This document shows, in pieces, positions 7,326 to 23,433 of a stretch of 23,433 bases of DNA. The notes under the pieces were generated by a model that ran no database searches, was not told the DNA's origin, and was given only the letters and a program-made list of their open reading frames with translations. The stretch is from a virus: the IMG/VR virus record IMGVR_UViG_3300018476_000012, positions 1 through 23,433 of that record, one strand, 5' to 3'. Made by a program: the position numbers and the translations under genes. Position 1 is the stretch's first letter, and every line of letters begins with the position of its first letter.

Positions 7326-7828
7326 GACGCCTTCGCTTTTGGGCGTTTGCCTTCGGTGTTTTCTCGCGCGCGCGTTGTACGAGTACTAGTTCTTGACGGA
7401 TCTATGACGGATCGGGTGCAGTGGGCTGCACCCCTGACGGAAGCCCACTGCACCCCTGACTGTTGATGGCTGTGGAAATCTTTTGTTTTCCCAGCGATTC
7501 TCGATCGCCCCTGTGGAAAAACCTGTGGACCGAATAACCGGAGTTGGTCGCCATCACTGAAGACCAGGGCGGCCTCGACGAACCGATAGTGTGTCGCCTG
7601 ATGCTGCCGGGCGGGCTTCAGGACCTCGAGGACGCCGCGACGGTGCAGCTCGTGGACCGCGGTCTGTGTGGCGCGTTCACACCGCCCGACCATCCGCGCG
7701 AGGCTCGCGATCGATGGAAAGACGCGCACGCCGGCGTCCGTCGCAAACGACGCGCACGCCGCAGCGTACGGCTTCAGCCAGGCCGGCAGATCGGACTCGA
7801 ACACGGCAGAGACCAATCGCCCGCTCAT
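7322..7828 (-). CDS. Winged-helix protein, probable replication initiator
   Basis: A 168-residue protein from ATG 7828. The frame is open further up, but that part is Arg/Pro-rich and overlaps the previous gene. Residues about 15-90 form a winged helix-turn-helix: WLKPYAAACASFATD, VFPSIASLARMVGRCERATQTAVHELHRRGVLEVLK and the wing THYRFV. This resembles the N-terminal DNA-binding domain of phage O-type replication initiators. The C-terminal half is Ser/Arg/Lys-rich and low in complexity, and its DNA carries strong direct and inverted repeats and DnaA-box-like sites, as in lambda gene O. Its position directly before rusA fits a replication module. A purely transcriptional role cannot be excluded. 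The ribosome site (GGGAG only two bases before ATG) is poor. Confidence 0.7.
   Translation of the reverse strand: MSGRLVSAVFESDLPAWLKPYAAACASFATDAGVRVFPSIASLARMVGRCERATQTAVHELHRRGVLEVLKPARQHQATHYRFVEAALVFSDGDQLRLFGPQVFPQGRSRIAGKTKDFHSHQQSGVQWASVRGAAHCTRSVIDPSRTSTRTTRARENTEGKRPKAKAS
7394..7532. other. Candidate replication origin inside the winged-helix gene
   Basis: Several repeat classes cluster here. TGACGGA occurs at 7394, 7405 and 7435, and TGACGGATC twice at 11-bp spacing. A perfect 14-bp inverted repeat pairs 7414-7427 with 7442-7455 across a 14-base loop. CTGCACCCCTGAC is directly repeated at 7426 and 7448. TGTGGA follows at 7471, 7512 and 7524; TGTGGAAAA and TGTGGAAAT resemble the DnaA box TGTGNATAA. 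An AT-richer stretch lies at 7477-7491. The combination of iterons, DnaA-like boxes and easily melted DNA inside a probable initiator gene recalls lambda ori. Function is inferred. Confidence 0.5.
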
Positions 7829-10012: not shown

Positions 10013-10047
10013 TTTAGAATCAAGCACTTAACATCTAGAGAACTGGC

Positions 10048-10092
10048 TTCCTAAACCGGGGGTCGCAGGTTCAATTCCTGCCAGGCGCACCA
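10048..10092 (+). other. attP: attP core: 3' half of a tRNA-Arg(CCU)-like gene
   Basis: From the anticodon loop onward this reads as a tRNA 3' half: CCT anticodon (10050-10052), AAACCGG, variable region, T-arm GCAGG-TTCAATT-CCTGC (10065-10081), acceptor strand CAGGCGC (10082-10088), discriminator A and encoded CCA (10090-10092). No matching 5' half precedes it, and anticodon-stem pairing is imperfect (C31-A39). It is therefore a fragment that would restore the host tRNA-Arg after integration, a standard target for tyrosine integrases. The exact left crossover limit, about 10043-10050, cannot be fixed from one sequence. Confidence 0.88.
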
Positions 10093-10480: not shown

Positions 10481-10615
10481 TCAGAGCAGCAGCGACAGGA
10501 TCCAGAGCGCCAGGCCGGCGCCCAGCAGGCCGACGCGCGGGCTCGGGATGTTGGCCGCCGCCGCCAGGAAGCACACGAGCGCGAGGACCAACAGCACGAG
10601 ATCGATCGTCATCAT
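10481..10615 (-). CDS. Two-segment small membrane protein, holin-like
   Basis: A 44-residue protein made almost entirely of two hydrophobic segments: IDLVLLVLALVCFLAAAANI (3-22), a short IPSPR turn, then GLLGAGLALWILSLLL to the end. The ATG at 10615 overlaps the preceding stop (ATGA), with AAAGG nine bases upstream; a second ATG follows directly. It is the last gene of the late series, a frequent place for lysis genes, and the hairpin topology fits a very small holin. It lacks the charged C-terminus usual in holins, so the function is inferred from size, topology and position only. Confidence 0.65.
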   Translation of the reverse strand: MMTIDLVLLVLALVCFLAAAANIPSPRVGLLGAGLALWILSLLL

Positions 10616-10821
10616 GGCGGGTCGCCTTTCCAGGTGAACTGCGTTCCACAACAGACACAGACGTACTGATCGACGCCGCCGGCGGGCTCGGGCGGGGTCG
10701 CGGTGTCGCAGTGTTTCGGACACTGCGGCCCGTTGCCACGTGTCGGCTCGCCCGGGACCGCTAGGGTCATTCGGAGCGCCTGGGCGTCTATCCGGCGCCC
10801 GTTGACCCGACCGGGCCTCAC
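10612..10821 (-). CDS. Small Cys-rich (zinc-knuckle-like) protein
   Basis: A protein of 69 residues from GTG 10821 (four-base overlap with the previous stop) or 52 from ATG 10770; neither start has a strong ribosome site. The shorter form begins MTLAVPGEPTRGNGP and is less Arg-rich, so it may be the real product. The C-terminal half has CPKHC, about 15 residues of linker, then VCVCCGTQFTWKGD, giving two Cys pairs that could hold zinc. It is co-translated with the small membrane protein through ATGA. I do not recognise the family. Confidence 0.6.
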   Translation of the reverse strand: MRPGRVNGRRIDAQALRMTLAVPGEPTRGNGPQCPKHCDTATPPEPAGGVDQYVCVCCGTQFTWKGDPP

Positions 10822-11185: not shown

Positions 11186-13060
11186 TTACGCGGTCCAGTC
11201 GCGGCCCGGCAGCCGACGGACCAGCCGCTCGAGACGCCCGCCGCGCCGGCGAATCGTCGGGATGAGCGCGTTCCAGGTCGTCATGGTCGCGGCGGCCGCC
11301 GCAGGCTCGAGCTGACCGACGACGAGGCGCGCGACGCCGCCATGCTGGAAGCTCGCGCCGGCGGGCAGCGGGCCGGATCGTTCGATGAGGCCGGTCAGCA
11401 TGTTGATCACGGTGAACTCGGCGCACGCCCGCTCGCAGGGCAGCGCGTTGCCGGCTTGCTCCTGCGTGTGCACGACGAGCACGAAGCGACCATCCGGCGC
11501 GATCGCGTGCTCGGCGCGCGTCGGGTCGACCGCGGCCAGGATGCGCACGCCGGCGAAGCGCGTCCCCGCGTGGCACACGACCGGGAAGGTCGCGATGTCG
11601 GTCGGCAGGAAGGTGGGCAGCCGCGCGACCTCCAGGAAGCCGGGCATCGTGTGGATCGGCCCGTTCCAGAAGACGCCGTTCCCCGACATGAATGTCCACG
11701 CCTGGCCGCCCAGGAGCGCCGCCGCGGTGAGGCCGCACAGCAGCTCGGGATCGTTAACCTGGCCGACGCTGACGCCGTCGCCGCCCCCGACCGGTTCGGT
11801 GTTGACGACCGGTTGACCGGTGTTGCGGATCGTCTCGTCGTAGCCGTACCCGAAATAGTGCTCGATGATGTGCGTGTGATCGCCGCGGTTGCCGTGACAG
11901 GTGATCGCCGTCGCCGGCGACGCGGACCAGTAGACAAACGAGTCCGGCATTTCTGACTCCCAGGACGTCATCGGCGGATCGCAGGCGGCGAGCGCGTCCG
12001 GGTCCGAACTCCCGCCCGGCGCCGACAACCCGCGGATCGCCGGCAGCCAGCCCGCGCCAGATTCGAACGCATAGATCATCCGCTGCAGGAGCTCGCGCGA
12101 GTCCCCGCCGTTCTGCCAGGCCTCGTTGATCGCCCACACGCCGGCGAGGACCTCGCGCCCGAATGGCAGGCTCGCGTAGAACTCGCCGTTGCGGAACATG
12201 TGATCGACCTTCTCGTCGTCGTCCCAGGCGTTCATGTCGCCGCGGTCGTCGAAGATCTTCAGGCCGAGCTCGTGCAGGAGCGTGACGTATTCGCGTTTGC
12301 GGTCCCAGTAGTTCGGGGTCGCCGGAATCTCAGCGCCGCTATTCGCGATGAACGGGATCGGCGTGACCTCGCGACCCTTCCAGGCTTCCCATTCGTCGGC
12401 GTCGCCGGGTCGGTTCGCGTCCCAGTACCCGAGGACGTCGAGGTTGCGGACCACGCCGTACTCTTCGGCGATGATCTCGAGTTGCGTCCGGACGTCGAGC
12501 CCGCCGATCGTTTTGCCGTGACACCAGGCCGAGAAGCCCTCCATGAAGTGACACGCCATGACGATCCGCGGACCGGTCGCGTCGCCGATCACGCGATCGG
12601 CGCGCGTGATCTCGCCGGCGAGGACATTGGGATTCGTGACGGGTGGCGGCGCCGGCGTCCAAAAGTCCGCGCTCGACGCGAAGAATTCCCACTCGCCCGG
12701 GACCGTCGGACCCGGGACCCGATCCGCGACGACGAGCTCGCCGCCGCCGCCCTCCGCGCAGAGGTACTTGCCATGAAACGAGAGAAACGCGACGCCGACG
12801 TCGCGGACCTCGATCGTGAACCGTTCCCACTCGCCGGACGCGAGCGCGCGCGCCAGGACGGTGTCATCGGGCTCCGCGGTCAAGTAGTGCCCGTCGTGCG
12901 CCTGCAGCGAGACGCGCCCGTCGTCGTAGGTGTGGACGGTCCACGTTTCCCATGGTCCAGCGAACACACGGTCCGCGACGACCAGGCCGCCGCCGCCGTC
13001 CTCCGCGCAGACATACGAACCATTCGCGGATTGCAGCGTAGTGGAGACGGGCGCGATCAT
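11186..13060 (-). CDS. Fascin-like beta-trefoil plus glycoside-hydrolase-like protein
   Basis: A 624-residue protein starting at ATG 13060 (AAAGGA eight bases upstream; ATGA overlap with the small membrane gene). Residues 5-130 contain repeated units such as SYVCAEDGGGGLVVADR, HYLTAEPDD and KYLCAEGGGGELVVADR, the signature of a fascin-like beta-trefoil, often a carbohydrate-binding fold. After a Pro-rich linker (137-142) comes a roughly 350-residue domain suggesting a TIM-barrel glycosidase: IVMACHFMEGFSAWCHG, KIFDDRGDMNAWDDD, VWAINEAWQNGGD (Asn312-Glu313, candidate acid/base) and VVNTEPVGGGDG (Glu422, candidate nucleophile). A beta-rich C-terminal domain follows. There is no signal peptide. 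It probably decorates the tail and binds or degrades surface polysaccharide. The family cannot be fixed by eye. Confidence 0.72.
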   Translation of the reverse strand: MIAPVSTTLQSANGSYVCAEDGGGGLVVADRVFAGPWETWTVHTYDDGRVSLQAHDGHYLTAEPDDTVLARALASGEWERFTIEVRDVGVAFLSFHGKYLCAEGGGGELVVADRVPGPTVPGEWEFFASSADFWTPAPPPVTNPNVLAGEITRADRVIGDATGPRIVMACHFMEGFSAWCHGKTIGGLDVRTQLEIIAEEYGVVRNLDVLGYWDANRPGDADEWEAWKGREVTPIPFIANSGAEIPATPNYWDRKREYVTLLHELGLKIFDDRGDMNAWDDDEKVDHMFRNGEFYASLPFGREVLAGVWAINEAWQNGGDSRELLQRMIYAFESGAGWLPAIRGLSAPGGSSDPDALAACDPPMTSWESEMPDSFVYWSASPATAITCHGNRGDHTHIIEHYFGYGYDETIRNTGQPVVNTEPVGGGDGVSVGQVNDPELLCGLTAAALLGGQAWTFMSGNGVFWNGPIHTMPGFLEVARLPTFLPTDIATFPVVCHAGTRFAGVRILAAVDPTRAEHAIAPDGRFVLVVHTQEQAGNALPCERACAEFTVINMLTGLIERSGPLPAGASFQHGGVARLVVGQLEPAAAAATMTTWNALIPTIRRRGGRLERLVRRLPGRDWTA

Positions 13061-13146
13061 TTCGGTTTGTCCTTTCGAGGGCGAAGCGAGAACACGACGA
13101 GGGCGACGACGACCGCCAACAGGACCAACGTGTCGACGAGGATCAC
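13057..13146 (-). CDS. 29-residue single-pass membrane peptide
   Basis: A tiny gene between the tail hub and the glycosidase-like gene. GTG 13146 overlaps the hub stop by four bases (GTGA), and its stop overlaps the next ATG (ATGA). It has one of the best ribosome sites of the genome, GGAGGG at 13152-13157, five bases upstream. The product is MILVDTLVLLAVVVALVVFSL followed by a basic RPRKDKPK tail: one transmembrane helix with its charged end in the cytoplasm. It is probably involved in lysis or membrane targeting, which is inference. It falls below normal gene-finder length limits. Confidence 0.72.
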   Translation of the reverse strand: MILVDTLVLLAVVVALVVFSLRPRKDKPK

Positions 13147-15896
13147 GACGTCCCTCCGACGACGGGGCCGCGCGCGACCAGGCGGCGCAGCGTGTCCTCG
13201 AGTGAGAACCGGACGCTTGAGGCCTCCACGGAGTAGCGCGGCGCGACGCCAGGGACCTGATCGATTTCCGTGATCGTCACGTCCTGGATCGTCAACACGA
13301 CGGCGATCGCCGGTGAGGGGAGATTGACAACGACCGGCTTCCCGCTCTTGGTCTTGACGTCGCGGGTCGCATACGCGACGGTGATGATCGGCCGCGCGAA
13401 GAGCGCCAGGTCCGCGTCACAGCGCGCGGTCAGGGACTCGACACCGCGGCGCGTGTCGGTGATCACATATTCGACGACGCCATCGCCGCCGGCGCGCGCG
13501 GCCTGTTCGGCTTGCGCCGCGAGGTCATCGCGTTGCACCCAGATATGAATCGCCGACCCTTTCGCGATCGGCACGGTCAGGCCCGCGACGCCGACGAGCA
13601 TCGGCGCGGGGATCGCCTGGCTGCCGTAGAGGACCGTCGTGGTGATGGCGCCGGGACCGGTCGCCGGAATCCCGACCAGCTGCCCGCCGCTCGTGCCGGT
13701 GTAGCGGACGACTTGCCCGCCGCCGAGCTTGACCCAACCACCGGCCGCGAGGAACGGTGCCGGACTGGCGACGGGCAGCGCCGGCGCGCCGGGGTTGACC
13801 TGGCCGGCGGGCTGCGTCAGGCCGGACGTGTCGCCGATCGGGGCATCCGTCGTCAGGCCGGCATCGGGCGTCGAGTCCACGTAACTGCCCGCCGTGTTGC
13901 TGCCGACGGTGTAGAGCTTTTTGAGCGCCGTCGCGCCGGCCGCCGTCCGATACAGCTCGATGTTCGTGACCCCGGACGGGCCGGCGGGCCAGGTGACATT
14001 GGCGCGATTGGCGGTGACCGCCGTCGCAGGCACGAGCGCGCCGAGGCTCGCATTGGCGAGGGCGTCATCCGCCGCCGTCGTGCCGTTGGTCACACTGAGC
14101 GCGAGGCGCGCGGTCGCGGCGCCGGCGGCGTTGAACTCCCGATAGAGATCGACGTGTGTGACGAGGACCAGCGGCGAGACGGGAATCGCGCTCAGGTGAC
14201 AGGTCCCGAGGCCGCTGTGATCGGTCGTCGGCGCCGCCGGGCCCAGCGTCTCGTCCGCCTTGATGTCGATCAGATACCGCCCTTCCGTGAATTCGGAGAA
14301 TTGCCCGGCGGCCTGCCCAAACGGGAGCCGGAAGAACGTCGGGCCTGGCGCCGACGCGCCGCCGTGCGTCCGGTACCAGCACCGCTGAAAACCGGCGGGG
14401 GCAGCCGGCAGGCCGGCGATCGTGTCGATCACGCCGGCGTTGTAGGCCAGGCGTTCGTTGGCCACCGGACTCAAGACCGTCTCCCGCGTGCCGCCATCCC
14501 AAAACGTAAAGCCGTAGCTGTACAAGGCCTCGACGTCGAGCGCGCCCTCGGGACGGGAGGTGCCGCCGGGAAACGCGACCGGTCCCGACGCCGGCGGCGC
14601 GATGCCCGCGACCGCCGTGATCGCATTGCTGACCGGCCCGGGGAGCGTCGAGCCCGTCGCCGTCCGGAACACGGCGTAGTAGCGATGGCTGCCCGGATTG
14701 AGCCCGCCGCCCGCGGAGGCCGCGCCGGCCAGCGGCGCCGTCGGCGGCGAGGGGAGCGCGCCGATCGTCACGCGCGTCGTCGGACTCGGGAGCGTCCCGC
14801 CCGTCGCCGTCAGGAACCGGTAGGCATAGTCGTGCGTGCCGGATTCGATGCCGCTCCCGTCCGCCAGCGCCACACCGGGCGGGGTCGTCGGCCCGGCGCC
14901 TGGCCCGACCAGCGTCCCGCCGTCCGTGAGCTCGACGCCGGTATGGGTGAGCTGTTCGGACTGCGCGCCGGCGGGCGTGGTCGCGGCGATGAGGCCGCCG
15001 CCGGTCGGCGAGAATTGCGCGCCGTCCTCGATCGGGATGAGCGTCTCGCCGGGCGCGAGGTCGGCCTGGATCGATTCCCCGTAGCCCTTCCCATAGACGC
15101 GCGTCCGGAGTTGGCTGCTGTCGGTCTTCGATTGAATCGGCGGATCGTGCAAGAAGGGATGCGTCGCGTCGATCGGGTCGGGCGGCGCCGCGGTGTCGTC
15201 GCGGAATAGGTAGATCGTCCCGTCCTCAACCTTGCAGTAGCCGCCGACCGCGGTCGCCAGGCGGCTCAGGCACGCGATGAACGTGTCCGTACCGTCGAAC
15301 ACGATCGAGACGAGCGGGAGGTCGGCCTCGATGCCGGCCGTCGAGAAGTCCGGCGCGAAGCTCGTCGTGATGGCCAGGGCGATCGTCGTCGCCGAGGTGT
15401 CGACCCAGGTCCCAAACGGGCGACGCGCATTGGCGCGCGCGGTGTCATCGATCGCGGTGATCGCCCACGCGACGTGTTGCGGTGTTCCTTCGAAGTAGTG
15501 ATCGACACTCTGGACCTGGCCGGCGAACAGCACGAGGCTCGACCCGAGCGTGATCCGGAGGCGCTGCCCGACGATGGGCGCGAGGCCCTCGATGACGAGC
15601 GCACAGGTATTCGGCGCGTCGTTCAGGATGTCGTGAATCGTGACGCCCTTCATGCGGACGCGACCGCGGACGTCGACGCCGTCAATCGTGATGCCGACGC
15701 GCGTGGTGGACGGGACGACGAGATCGGCGCCCGCCGTGATCGTGATCGTCGGCGCCGCGGCGAGCAGCGCCGTCGTCCGCAAGTCCGCCGCGGCCGTGAC
15801 GCTGATCGTGAGCTGCGCGGCGAGTGTGAGCGCGGCGCCGGCCGGCACTAAGCCACCGGCAAACGGCACGCTCGCAAAATAAATCCCGCCGAACAT
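13143..15896 (-). CDS. Tail-tip/baseplate hub protein with inserted Fn3/Ig-like repeats
   Basis: A 917-residue protein. It begins MFGGIYFASVPFAGG, typical of phage tail-tip proteins. Residues about 65-290 form a hub-like domain (RVGITIDGVDVRGRVRMKGV, LVLFAGQVQSVDHYF, SRLATAVGGYCKVEDGTIYL). Residues about 300-760 are a Gly/Thr/Pro-rich insertion of beta-sandwich repeats, with GSGIESGTHDYAYRFLTATG echoed by GGLNPGSHRYYAVFRTATG. The hub fold then resumes at GDGVVEYVITDTRRGVESLTARCDADLALF and VAYATRDVKTKSGKPVVV, and ends in beta-strands. The insertion probably reaches outward and contacts surface sugars, while the hub closes the tail tube. The ATG lies four bases after the fibre gene's stop. The repeats give the gene unusual low-complexity DNA. 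Confidence 0.85.
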   Translation of the reverse strand: MFGGIYFASVPFAGGLVPAGAALTLAAQLTISVTAAADLRTTALLAAAPTITITAGADLVVPSTTRVGITIDGVDVRGRVRMKGVTIHDILNDAPNTCALVIEGLAPIVGQRLRITLGSSLVLFAGQVQSVDHYFEGTPQHVAWAITAIDDTARANARRPFGTWVDTSATTIALAITTSFAPDFSTAGIEADLPLVSIVFDGTDTFIACLSRLATAVGGYCKVEDGTIYLFRDDTAAPPDPIDATHPFLHDPPIQSKTDSSQLRTRVYGKGYGESIQADLAPGETLIPIEDGAQFSPTGGGLIAATTPAGAQSEQLTHTGVELTDGGTLVGPGAGPTTPPGVALADGSGIESGTHDYAYRFLTATGGTLPSPTTRVTIGALPSPPTAPLAGAASAGGGLNPGSHRYYAVFRTATGSTLPGPVSNAITAVAGIAPPASGPVAFPGGTSRPEGALDVEALYSYGFTFWDGGTRETVLSPVANERLAYNAGVIDTIAGLPAAPAGFQRCWYRTHGGASAPGPTFFRLPFGQAAGQFSEFTEGRYLIDIKADETLGPAAPTTDHSGLGTCHLSAIPVSPLVLVTHVDLYREFNAAGAATARLALSVTNGTTAADDALANASLGALVPATAVTANRANVTWPAGPSGVTNIELYRTAAGATALKKLYTVGSNTAGSYVDSTPDAGLTTDAPIGDTSGLTQPAGQVNPGAPALPVASPAPFLAAGGWVKLGGGQVVRYTGTSGGQLVGIPATGPGAITTTVLYGSQAIPAPMLVGVAGLTVPIAKGSAIHIWVQRDDLAAQAEQAARAGGDGVVEYVITDTRRGVESLTARCDADLALFARPIITVAYATRDVKTKSGKPVVVNLPSPAIAVVLTIQDVTITEIDQVPGVAPRYSVEASSVRFSLEDTLRRLVARGPVVGGTS
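13152..13157 (-). promoter_or_regulatory. Strong ribosome site deciding the 29-residue gene
   Basis: GGAGGG on the minus strand, five bases before GTG 13146 and inside the 3' end of the hub gene. It is the main evidence that this tiny frame is translated. Confidence 0.7.
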
Positions 15897-22151: not shown

Positions 22152-23433
22152 GGAGGCCCTCGAGGGATTTCGCGAGCGTCTCGAGAAACTGCTTTTCCTC
22201 GGCCTCGTCGTCGGCCGACGGCAGTGCCGGCATCGCGACCGGGGCCGGCGCCGGCTTCGAGAACGGGGCATCGGCATCACGTTCGGCGAGCGCGGCGAGC
22301 GAGTAGTTCTGCTGCTGCATGTAGGGCGTGTTGCCACCCTTGACCGTGCCCAGCCCGAAGTATTTCTTGCGCACTTCATCCGGCGAGAGCGCGCCGGCGC
22401 CGATCGCTTCCGCGGCCGCTTTCGTCTTGGTCGCGGTGACCATCCAGATCAGATCGTCGATGTCGAATTCGGTCCCGTAGGGCCGCTTGAGTTCGAGCCC
22501 TTCGTCGAGCGACGTTTCGAAGTTCGTCAATTTTTCTTGCAGGCACTGCGCGTGATATTTCAGCCACAGCGATTCGACATCGGCGGTCGGCGTGTCATCC
22601 AGGTCGAGCAACGCCGGCGGGACGTGATAGCAGGTACAGACTTGCTTCGCGGTCCAATTCAACTGCTCGATCAGTTGCGCATCGGCCGCGCTGACGGTCA
22701 TCGCTTCGTACTTCAACCCTTTGCCGACGACGGCGACGCGGCCGATGTTGGCGCCTGAAAAGTTTTCTTCCCAGTAGGCCTTGATCCGTTGCGCTTGCTC
22801 TTCGCCGATTTCGCCGGGCGCCGTCAGGACGCCGCCGGGATGCGACCCGCCGCGAAAGAATTGCTCGCTCTTGGTTTGAATCGTCAGGCCCTGCTGGGCG
22901 GCCAGGCCGCACGCATACAGCGGCGTCACGCCGATCAGCGGATGGAACAACGTCACCATCGGGTCATGGATGATCTCGCGCGCAGGGACGACGAGATCCT
23001 GCCCCTCGGGGAGATCGTCGGTGATGCCGACGAGGTTGTCGCGTTTCAGCGCGTAATAGACCGCGCCATCAGGACCGACGAGCGGCGTGACGCGACAGGG
23101 GTCGAGCACGTAGAGCGCGGAGACGACGCCGCGCTCGTCGCGCTGTTTGAGGACGTAGGCATTGCCGGCGGTGAGCTTCGACGTGATCCACTGCTCGACG
23201 AACTTGTTGATCGTCTGGTAGCGATTCGGCTTGCGCAGCACCGGCGAGTACGCGGGATTGGTCGTCTCGGTCCAGATGCCGTTGTCGTCCTCGGTGACGA
23301 GCCGGAGCTGCAGCTTGCCGATGTCGGTCGCGATCAGCGTGACGCAGCCGAAGACGGCGAAGTACGAGAGCGCGGTCGGTGAGGTGATCTCGTCGTTGTT
23401 CTGCCACGCGCCCATGTAGGGCTCGCGGACCAG
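22141..23433 (-). CDS. Portal protein, HK97 family (main part, 5' end at 1-210)
   Basis: The gene reads through the right edge of the window and begins at 210 on the circle (459 residues in all). The protein forms the twelve-fold ring through which DNA enters and leaves. Visible family parts are ALSYFAVFGCVTLIATDIGKL, PAYSPVLRKPNRYQTINKFVEQWI, NAYVLKQRDERGVVSALYVLDP, and HPLIGVTPLYACGLAAQQGLTI, with VPPALLDL and LDEGLELKRPYGTEFDIDDL downstream. The C-terminus, with LSPDEVRKKYFGLGTVKGGNTPYMQQQNYSL, is the usual wing-to-crown region. The last 60 residues are Pro/Ala/Glu-rich. The gene follows the capsid gene, whereas in most HK97-like phages it precedes the protease and capsid. Confidence 0.95.
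   Translation of the reverse strand: MVREPYMGAWQNNDEITSPTALSYFAVFGCVTLIATDIGKLQLRLVTEDDNGIWTETTNPAYSPVLRKPNRYQTINKFVEQWITSKLTAGNAYVLKQRDERGVVSALYVLDPCRVTPLVGPDGAVYYALKRDNLVGITDDLPEGQDLVVPAREIIHDPMVTLFHPLIGVTPLYACGLAAQQGLTIQTKSEQFFRGGSHPGGVLTAPGEIGEEQAQRIKAYWEENFSGANIGRVAVVGKGLKYEAMTVSAADAQLIEQLNWTAKQVCTCYHVPPALLDLDDTPTADVESLWLKYHAQCLQEKLTNFETSLDEGLELKRPYGTEFDIDDLIWMVTATKTKAAAEAIGAGALSPDEVRKKYFGLGTVKGGNTPYMQQQNYSLAALAERDADAPFSKPAPAPVAMPALPSADDEAEEKQFLETLAKSLEGLHAA
23311..23433. repeat. Terminal direct repeat, right copy
   Basis: Exact second copy of bases 1-123. The unique genome length is therefore 23,310 bp, and position 23311 is the same molecule position as 1. Any count of genes or sites should use only one copy. 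Confidence 0.95.

Follow-up and report, generated by a model that had tools for sequence, protein, structure and literature searches.

A predicted GH-A-type glycoside hydrolase with a CBM92-like sugar-binding module encoded beside the tail genes of an uncultured phage

The 624-residue protein encoded at positions 11186–13060 on the minus strand of a soil viral record of 23,433 bases (the window, meaning the whole stretch of DNA analyzed) combines an N-terminal CBM92-like beta-trefoil with a predicted (beta/alpha)8 barrel resembling those of clan GH-A, and is very probably an active glycoside hydrolase with a sugar-binding head. The fuller reading, in which an active enzyme of this kind also has an extracellular role in entry, is one that we favor with less assurance. 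A sequence-only reading had proposed a sugar-binding trefoil fused to a glycosidase-type barrel with Glu313 and Glu422 as the catalytic pair, and fold, motif and conservation all lend support to it.

Genome and gene

A 123-bp direct repeat is common to both ends of the record (1–123 and 23311–23433), and the portal reading frame stays open through the junction when both copies of the repeat are counted; the record is therefore a closed genome of about 23.3 kb. Genes for the terminase, a fused protease-capsid, portal, connectors, major tail protein, tape measure, fiber-like proteins, RusA, a replication protein and a tyrosine integrase are present, and as predicted from these sequences the gene set is that of a temperate long-tailed phage. 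Beside the integrase gene is the 3′ end of an apparent tRNA-Arg(CCU) with CCA (10047–10092, plus strand), which is likely the attP site, and a similar tRNA piece is found in contigs L002, L006 and L008. The portal and capsid have relatives at 46–58% in prophages of Microvirga antarctica and Acetobacteraceae AT-5844, but a search of 385 alphaproteobacterial genomes for the attP tRNA sequence, allowing up to 2 mismatches, gave no match.

The reading frame of the enzyme begins with ATG, and its boundaries and strand are exactly those given in the sequence-only reading. It is not a chance ORF, because about 20 viral contigs recovered in IMG/VR scans encode relatives, dN/dS against the window protein is approximately 0.12–0.39 over the full length (Nei-Gojobori counts), and residues N312, E313 and E422 are the same in all 12 of the long sequences compared. 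The features of the protein are as follows.

11186..13060, minus strand: modular protein of 624 residues (CBM92-like trefoil, GH-A-like barrel, C-terminal beta domain and basic tail)
12671..13048, minus strand: beta-trefoil, CBM92-like carbohydrate-binding module, residues 5–130 (Pfam DUF7910/Fascin; PDB 7zoi/7zoh by sequence and fold)
12941..12952, minus strand: W37-E-T-W, first predicted glucosyl-binding Trp-Glu motif (aligned with WELF of CpCBM92)
12818..12829, minus strand: W78-E-R-F, second Trp-Glu motif (WExF; CBM92 alignment)
12680..12691, minus strand: W124-E-F-F, third Trp-Glu motif (WExF; CBM92 alignment)
11615..12613, minus strand: (beta/alpha)8 barrel, GH-A-like catalytic domain, residues 150–482 (AlphaFold2 models, DSSP, Foldseek)
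12122..12127, minus strand: N312-E313, predicted acid/base at the end of strand 4 (motif, models, conservation)
11792..11803, minus strand: N420-T-E422-P423, with the predicted nucleophile Glu422 at the end of strand 7 (motif, models, conservation)
11306..11614, minus strand: C-terminal beta domain, residues 483–585 (strands 494–584 in the model)
11189..11305, minus strand: basic tail, residues 586–624 (alignments, composition)

The N-terminal trefoil

In Pfam the trefoil passes the family cut-offs for both DUF7910 (E=2.9e-11) and Fascin (E=5.2e-7). In a single-sequence search of the PDB its best matches are two Chitinophaga pinensis CBM92 modules (4e-6 for 7zoi, and 1.3e-5), and in a profile search the fascins rank above CBM92, as the fold shared by the two allows. 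Foldseek comparison with the CBM92 crystal structures gives TMt values of 0.85–0.90 and rmsds of 1.8–2.1, and fascin trefoils also match by fold, with an rmsd of about 2 over 125 columns. The fold thus does not separate the two kinds of trefoil, but the binding site does, and it is for this reason that we prefer a relationship to CBM92.

In CBM92, each of the three subdomains ends in a WExF motif; mutagenesis shows that binding depends on the Trp residues, O3 and O4 of the glucosyl unit are held by the Glu, a contribution is proposed for an Arg close to each motif, and mutagenesis together with crystal structures showed that the motifs bind glucose (PMC11039641). The phage trefoil has Trp-Glu pairs at all three aligned sites, placed at the subdomain ends as in CpCBM92A/B (7zoi, 7zoh), the first being WETW rather than WExF, and an arginine precedes each of them (R31, R71 and R114). 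Across 12 long sequences, residues W37, E38, E79, W124 and E125 never vary, and W78 is replaced by Tyr in one (L002); each arginine varies in some relatives, the third most, to Q or T. A further resemblance to CpCBM92A/B is that the module adjoins a glycoside hydrolase, although in the phage protein it is N-terminal and its binding is predicted.

The beta-trefoil of 125–150 residues that characterizes CBM92 is present in the model and in the Foldseek matches. CBM92 members share an overall identity of at least 37% (PMC11039641), and the phage trefoil is 24–26% identical to the two members with solved structures, these being the members compared. Because of this identity and the one WExW motif we use the label CBM92-like, not CBM92. 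Judged from its sequence, the trefoil is a CBM92-like sugar-binding module, with binding predicted. The sequence-only reading had called the domain fascin-like: the trefoil itself stands, by Pfam and by fold, and the fascin label gives way to CBM92-like, since fascin only shares the fold. A fascin-type, actin-bundling function was rejected for the same reason, with the Trp-Glu sites pointing to CBM92. ‘Fascin’ matches in phages can mark sugar-binding modules.

The barrel and its predicted catalytic glutamates

The AlphaFold2 model of the whole protein (18 alignment rows, pLDDT 73.7, pTM 0.65) contains a (beta/alpha)8 barrel at about residues 168–480, and the barrel appears again when residues 134–590 are modeled alone (pTM 0.82); the two runs rest on overlapping alignments. 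In clan GH-A, the acid/base Glu ends strand 4, usually after an Asn, and the nucleophile Glu ends strand 7. This layout is found in both phage models, in which eight strands alternate with helices and, by DSSP, Glu313 is three residues past strand 4 (305–310) and preceded by N312, with Glu422 two residues past strand 7 (418–420). From these strand ends we infer that the two glutamates face each other; in the retaining hydrolases of the clan the two carboxylates are about 5 angstrom apart. The phage glutamates correspond to the ‘NE’ and ‘NTEP’ glutamates of the sequence-only reading, which numbered them correctly and expected the TIM barrel that both models contain. P423 is likewise invariant in the 12 long sequences.

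Foldseek returns 282 PDB matches to the barrel at E<=0.001, many of them glycoside hydrolases. At the top are BVU_0362 (4n0r, 2.6e-10), a GH140 apiosidase (8t9w, 3.3e-10, with TM 0.58/0.61) and an endo-galactanase (2gft), and PslG (4zn2, 2.8e-7) stands a little lower. TM-scores are moderate, at about 0.6, and model confidence is low in parts of the barrel, including segments between strands 5 and 7 (e.g. residues 348–375). The nearest clan GH-A folds (4n0r; GH140, 8t9w; BT_1012, 5msy; PslG, 4zn2) have the same barrel followed by a beta domain and the same two glutamates, as predicted for the phage protein, but the phage barrel is only 10–13% identical to them. It has no match in Pfam, PHROGs or NCBIfam, and a profile of the enzyme part finds no match among PDB sequences up to E=10; the likeness to GH140 is therefore at the fold level only and does not extend to sequence membership. 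Two viral proteins in BFVD, A0A6J5R1U1 and A0A1B1ISZ4, have a similar predicted fold over most of the length (E 5.8e-15 and 9.8e-10); both are uncharacterized and about 15% identical to the window protein.

A beta domain such as that at residues 483–585 often follows GH-A barrels. The basic tail has 8 K/R and 2 D/E residues, ends in GRDWTA and is modeled with low confidence; it is kept in the subfamily with the trefoil and absent from L013 and L029.

Gene neighborhood

The genes around the enzyme gene are listed here.

13143..15896, minus strand: tail hub-like protein, directly upstream of the enzyme gene (L018 homologue, conserved order)
13057..13146, minus strand: 29-codon peptide with one TM segment, VILVDTLVLLAVVVALVVFSLRPRKDKPK, which overlaps the end of the hub gene and the start of the enzyme gene; similar in L001, L008 and L009
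10818–11150, minus strand: 110-residue protein after the enzyme, with a weak PHROG 33419 match
10481–10821, minus strand: zinc-ribbon ORF (CPKHCDTATPP...CCGTxFTWKG), then a 44-residue protein; kept in several relatives

Among close relatives of the window, most contigs that extend this far keep one gene order: major tail protein, tape measure, gp80-like, S74 fiber, hub and enzyme. The hub-like protein itself has no family match, and its L018 homologue hits a PHROG for an internal virion protein, with a weak match to a baseplate hub. The sequence-only reading had placed the enzyme gene after the tail hub and fiber; it does directly follow the hub, and the fiber-like gene lies upstream of the hub. 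This gene order makes a virion-associated location plausible. The protein has no recognizable virion-docking domain, and inspection by eye shows no signal peptide. In L006, L002, L007 and L011 the slot of the 29-codon peptide is taken by other small ORFs, membrane or lipoprotein-like in character. The 110-residue protein has 69% mean identity in four relatives and is upstream of the hub in L016; the 44-residue protein has two predicted hydrophobic stretches and is possibly a holin.

Two patterns count against a role in entry at the tail. First, the mean identity of the enzyme is 69% (18 loci), compared with 53% for the hub, 58% for the fiber and 42% for the tape measure, and the enzyme is thus better conserved than its tail neighbors, unlike a typical receptor-binding protein. 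Secondly, the enzyme gene is among replication genes in L031 and directly after an endolysin gene in L029. Because of this last arrangement, and because no endolysin or other peptidoglycan hydrolase is recognized among the window ORFs scanned (or in the scanned part of L013), the main rival is a lysis-stage enzyme, made late and kept outside the particle, which would be released with or after a holin and attack the envelope or surrounding polysaccharide for exit. The membrane peptide overlapping the enzyme start, the small hydrophobic protein further down and the retention of the basic tail are also in its favor. However, the fold is GH-A-like and not that of a known peptidoglycan-hydrolase family, with no peptidoglycan-hydrolase domain matched in Pfam, PHROGs or NCBIfam; the trefoil is predicted to recognize glucosyl ends, not peptidoglycan; the gene lies within the tail operon; and the separate endolysin of L029 shows that the enzyme need not be the lysin there. 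The lysin of the window genome may simply be unrecognized. We consider the lysis-stage role unlikely, and an enzyme acting at entry remains the preferred reading.

Relatives and exchange of the N-terminal head

The trefoil-barrel plan is found at 64–89% identity in about fourteen of the IMG/VR contigs, some cut by contig ends. In L013 and L014 a barrel-like domain precedes the trefoil, which is followed by a window-type barrel (59–60%). L029 has a B_lectin-like (bulb-lectin-like) head (Pfam B_lectin 7.9e-6, below cut-off; PHROG 19296, 7e-16) on a 53% identical barrel whose glutamate sites read ‘NEP’, which is canonical, and ‘REP’. In L031, where the gene runs over the ends of a 65-kb record, both glutamates are kept behind a head of no recognized identity, and L018 has a trefoil on a barrel only 21–25% identical, with the glutamates matched by motif. 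In these predicted proteins, then, the head is exchanged (trefoil, extra barrel plus trefoil, mannose-lectin-like or unrecognized) and the barrel is kept, with both glutamates present wherever a relative's sequence covers them. The domains also differ in their identity to the window protein, with trefoil, barrel and C-terminal values of 0.78, 0.73 and 0.72 in L010 and 0.63, 0.81 and 0.91 in L008; this change of rank between domains suggests, from sequence comparison, recombination between modules. The very large ORF at 7424–11332 of L020, another viral contig, shows by eye a GH-A-like barrel (NEPW, TETG) after a propeller-like N-terminus, together with a CBM92-like trefoil and one more barrel-like domain.

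These patterns bear on the idea that the barrel is inactive and the protein is an adhesin, a receptor-binding protein that does no more than attach to surface sugar. There are phage tail proteins that bind glycans and leave them uncut, and the binding residues of the trefoil are kept here; but divergent relatives all share both glutamates and the NE and EP motifs, a constancy that an inactive enzyme would not be expected to show, and the binding module is the exchangeable part while the barrel is constant. We regard an adhesin as improbable and retain the active hydrolase.

In the searches made, relatives of the whole protein came only from uncultured phages. No relatives of the window protein, L029 or L018 were found in the collection of GenBank phages searched, and plasmid matches cover the trefoil only, with no full relatives among them. 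No cellular relatives were found by a pattern-based scan of genome contigs, which sees close relatives only, or by profile in 597 genomes of two bacterial families with related prophages (part of GTDB); as a control the profile recovers the window, L029 and L031, a weak control since all three are among the profile's own rows. An auxiliary metabolic or lysogenic-conversion gene, with which the host would degrade plant or fungal glucans in soil, might be suspected, as CBM92 modules are found on bacterial enzymes of soil species (PMC11039641) and the phage is temperate by its integrase and likely attP in a tRNA. It is made highly improbable by the lack of a visible secretion signal, by the absence of cellular relatives in the genomes scanned, and by the position of the gene, which is inside the late tail operon with its start overlapping the preceding small ORF and not in a lysogeny cassette.

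Proposed function

For the preferred reading, an active hydrolase at entry, we propose that the CBM92-like trefoil would bind the glucosyl units of a polysaccharide through as many as three Trp/Glu/Arg sites, and that the barrel would cleave a glycosidic bond as clan GH-A enzymes do, by a two-glutamate mechanism with configuration retained, Glu313 serving as acid/base and Glu422 as nucleophile; the site motifs, fold and conservation argue strongly for both steps. Gene order suggests that the enzyme would be made late with the tail genes and act outside the cell, most likely at the tail tip, where it would open a path through host capsule or exopolysaccharide. The gripping module would be swapped between phages and the cutting module kept. 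Our best guess for the target is a glucose-containing surface polysaccharide. Binding to beta-1,6-linked glucans is a hallmark of CBM92; the known ligands of the family are fungal and algal beta-glucans, and by analogy these would count against a target on the phage-host surface.

Comparison with known systems and significance

Phage enzymes against surface polysaccharide are well known, and the most studied depolymerases are beta-helix tailspikes, trimeric virion proteins that mostly form a right-handed beta-helix. That hallmark is absent from both AlphaFold2 models of the window protein, which have a barrel instead. Tailspike depolymerases such as KP34gp57 (PMC10653864) are likewise proposed to open the host polysaccharide layer, and the gene likewise adjoins tail genes, but the phage protein described here has a predicted GH-A-type barrel with a CBM92-like module, and its place on the virion is a proposal from gene order. 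We found nothing in the literature searched on trefoil-bearing phage depolymerases.

The sequence-only reading suggested that the domain combination may be new for phage tails. This holds only in part: a trefoil with a glycoside hydrolase is already familiar from bacterial enzymes (PMC11039641), but the protein itself is absent from the GenBank phages searched. The new elements are a GH-A-type barrel that falls in no known sequence family and that the searches made recovered solely from uncultured phages, and the exchange of sugar-binding heads on such a barrel. We put forward only tentatively, as somewhat less likely than not, that the barrel founds a new phage-only glycoside hydrolase family, a constant cutting unit of soil phages with exchangeable heads; if so, their depolymerase system would combine GH-A barrels with binding modules of cellular type and would do without beta-helix tailspikes. 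A GH-A-type enzyme with a glucan-binding module, retained among the tail genes of many uncultured phages, would give phages a second modular design for passing surface polysaccharide, and would be a candidate new enzyme family with clear test residues.
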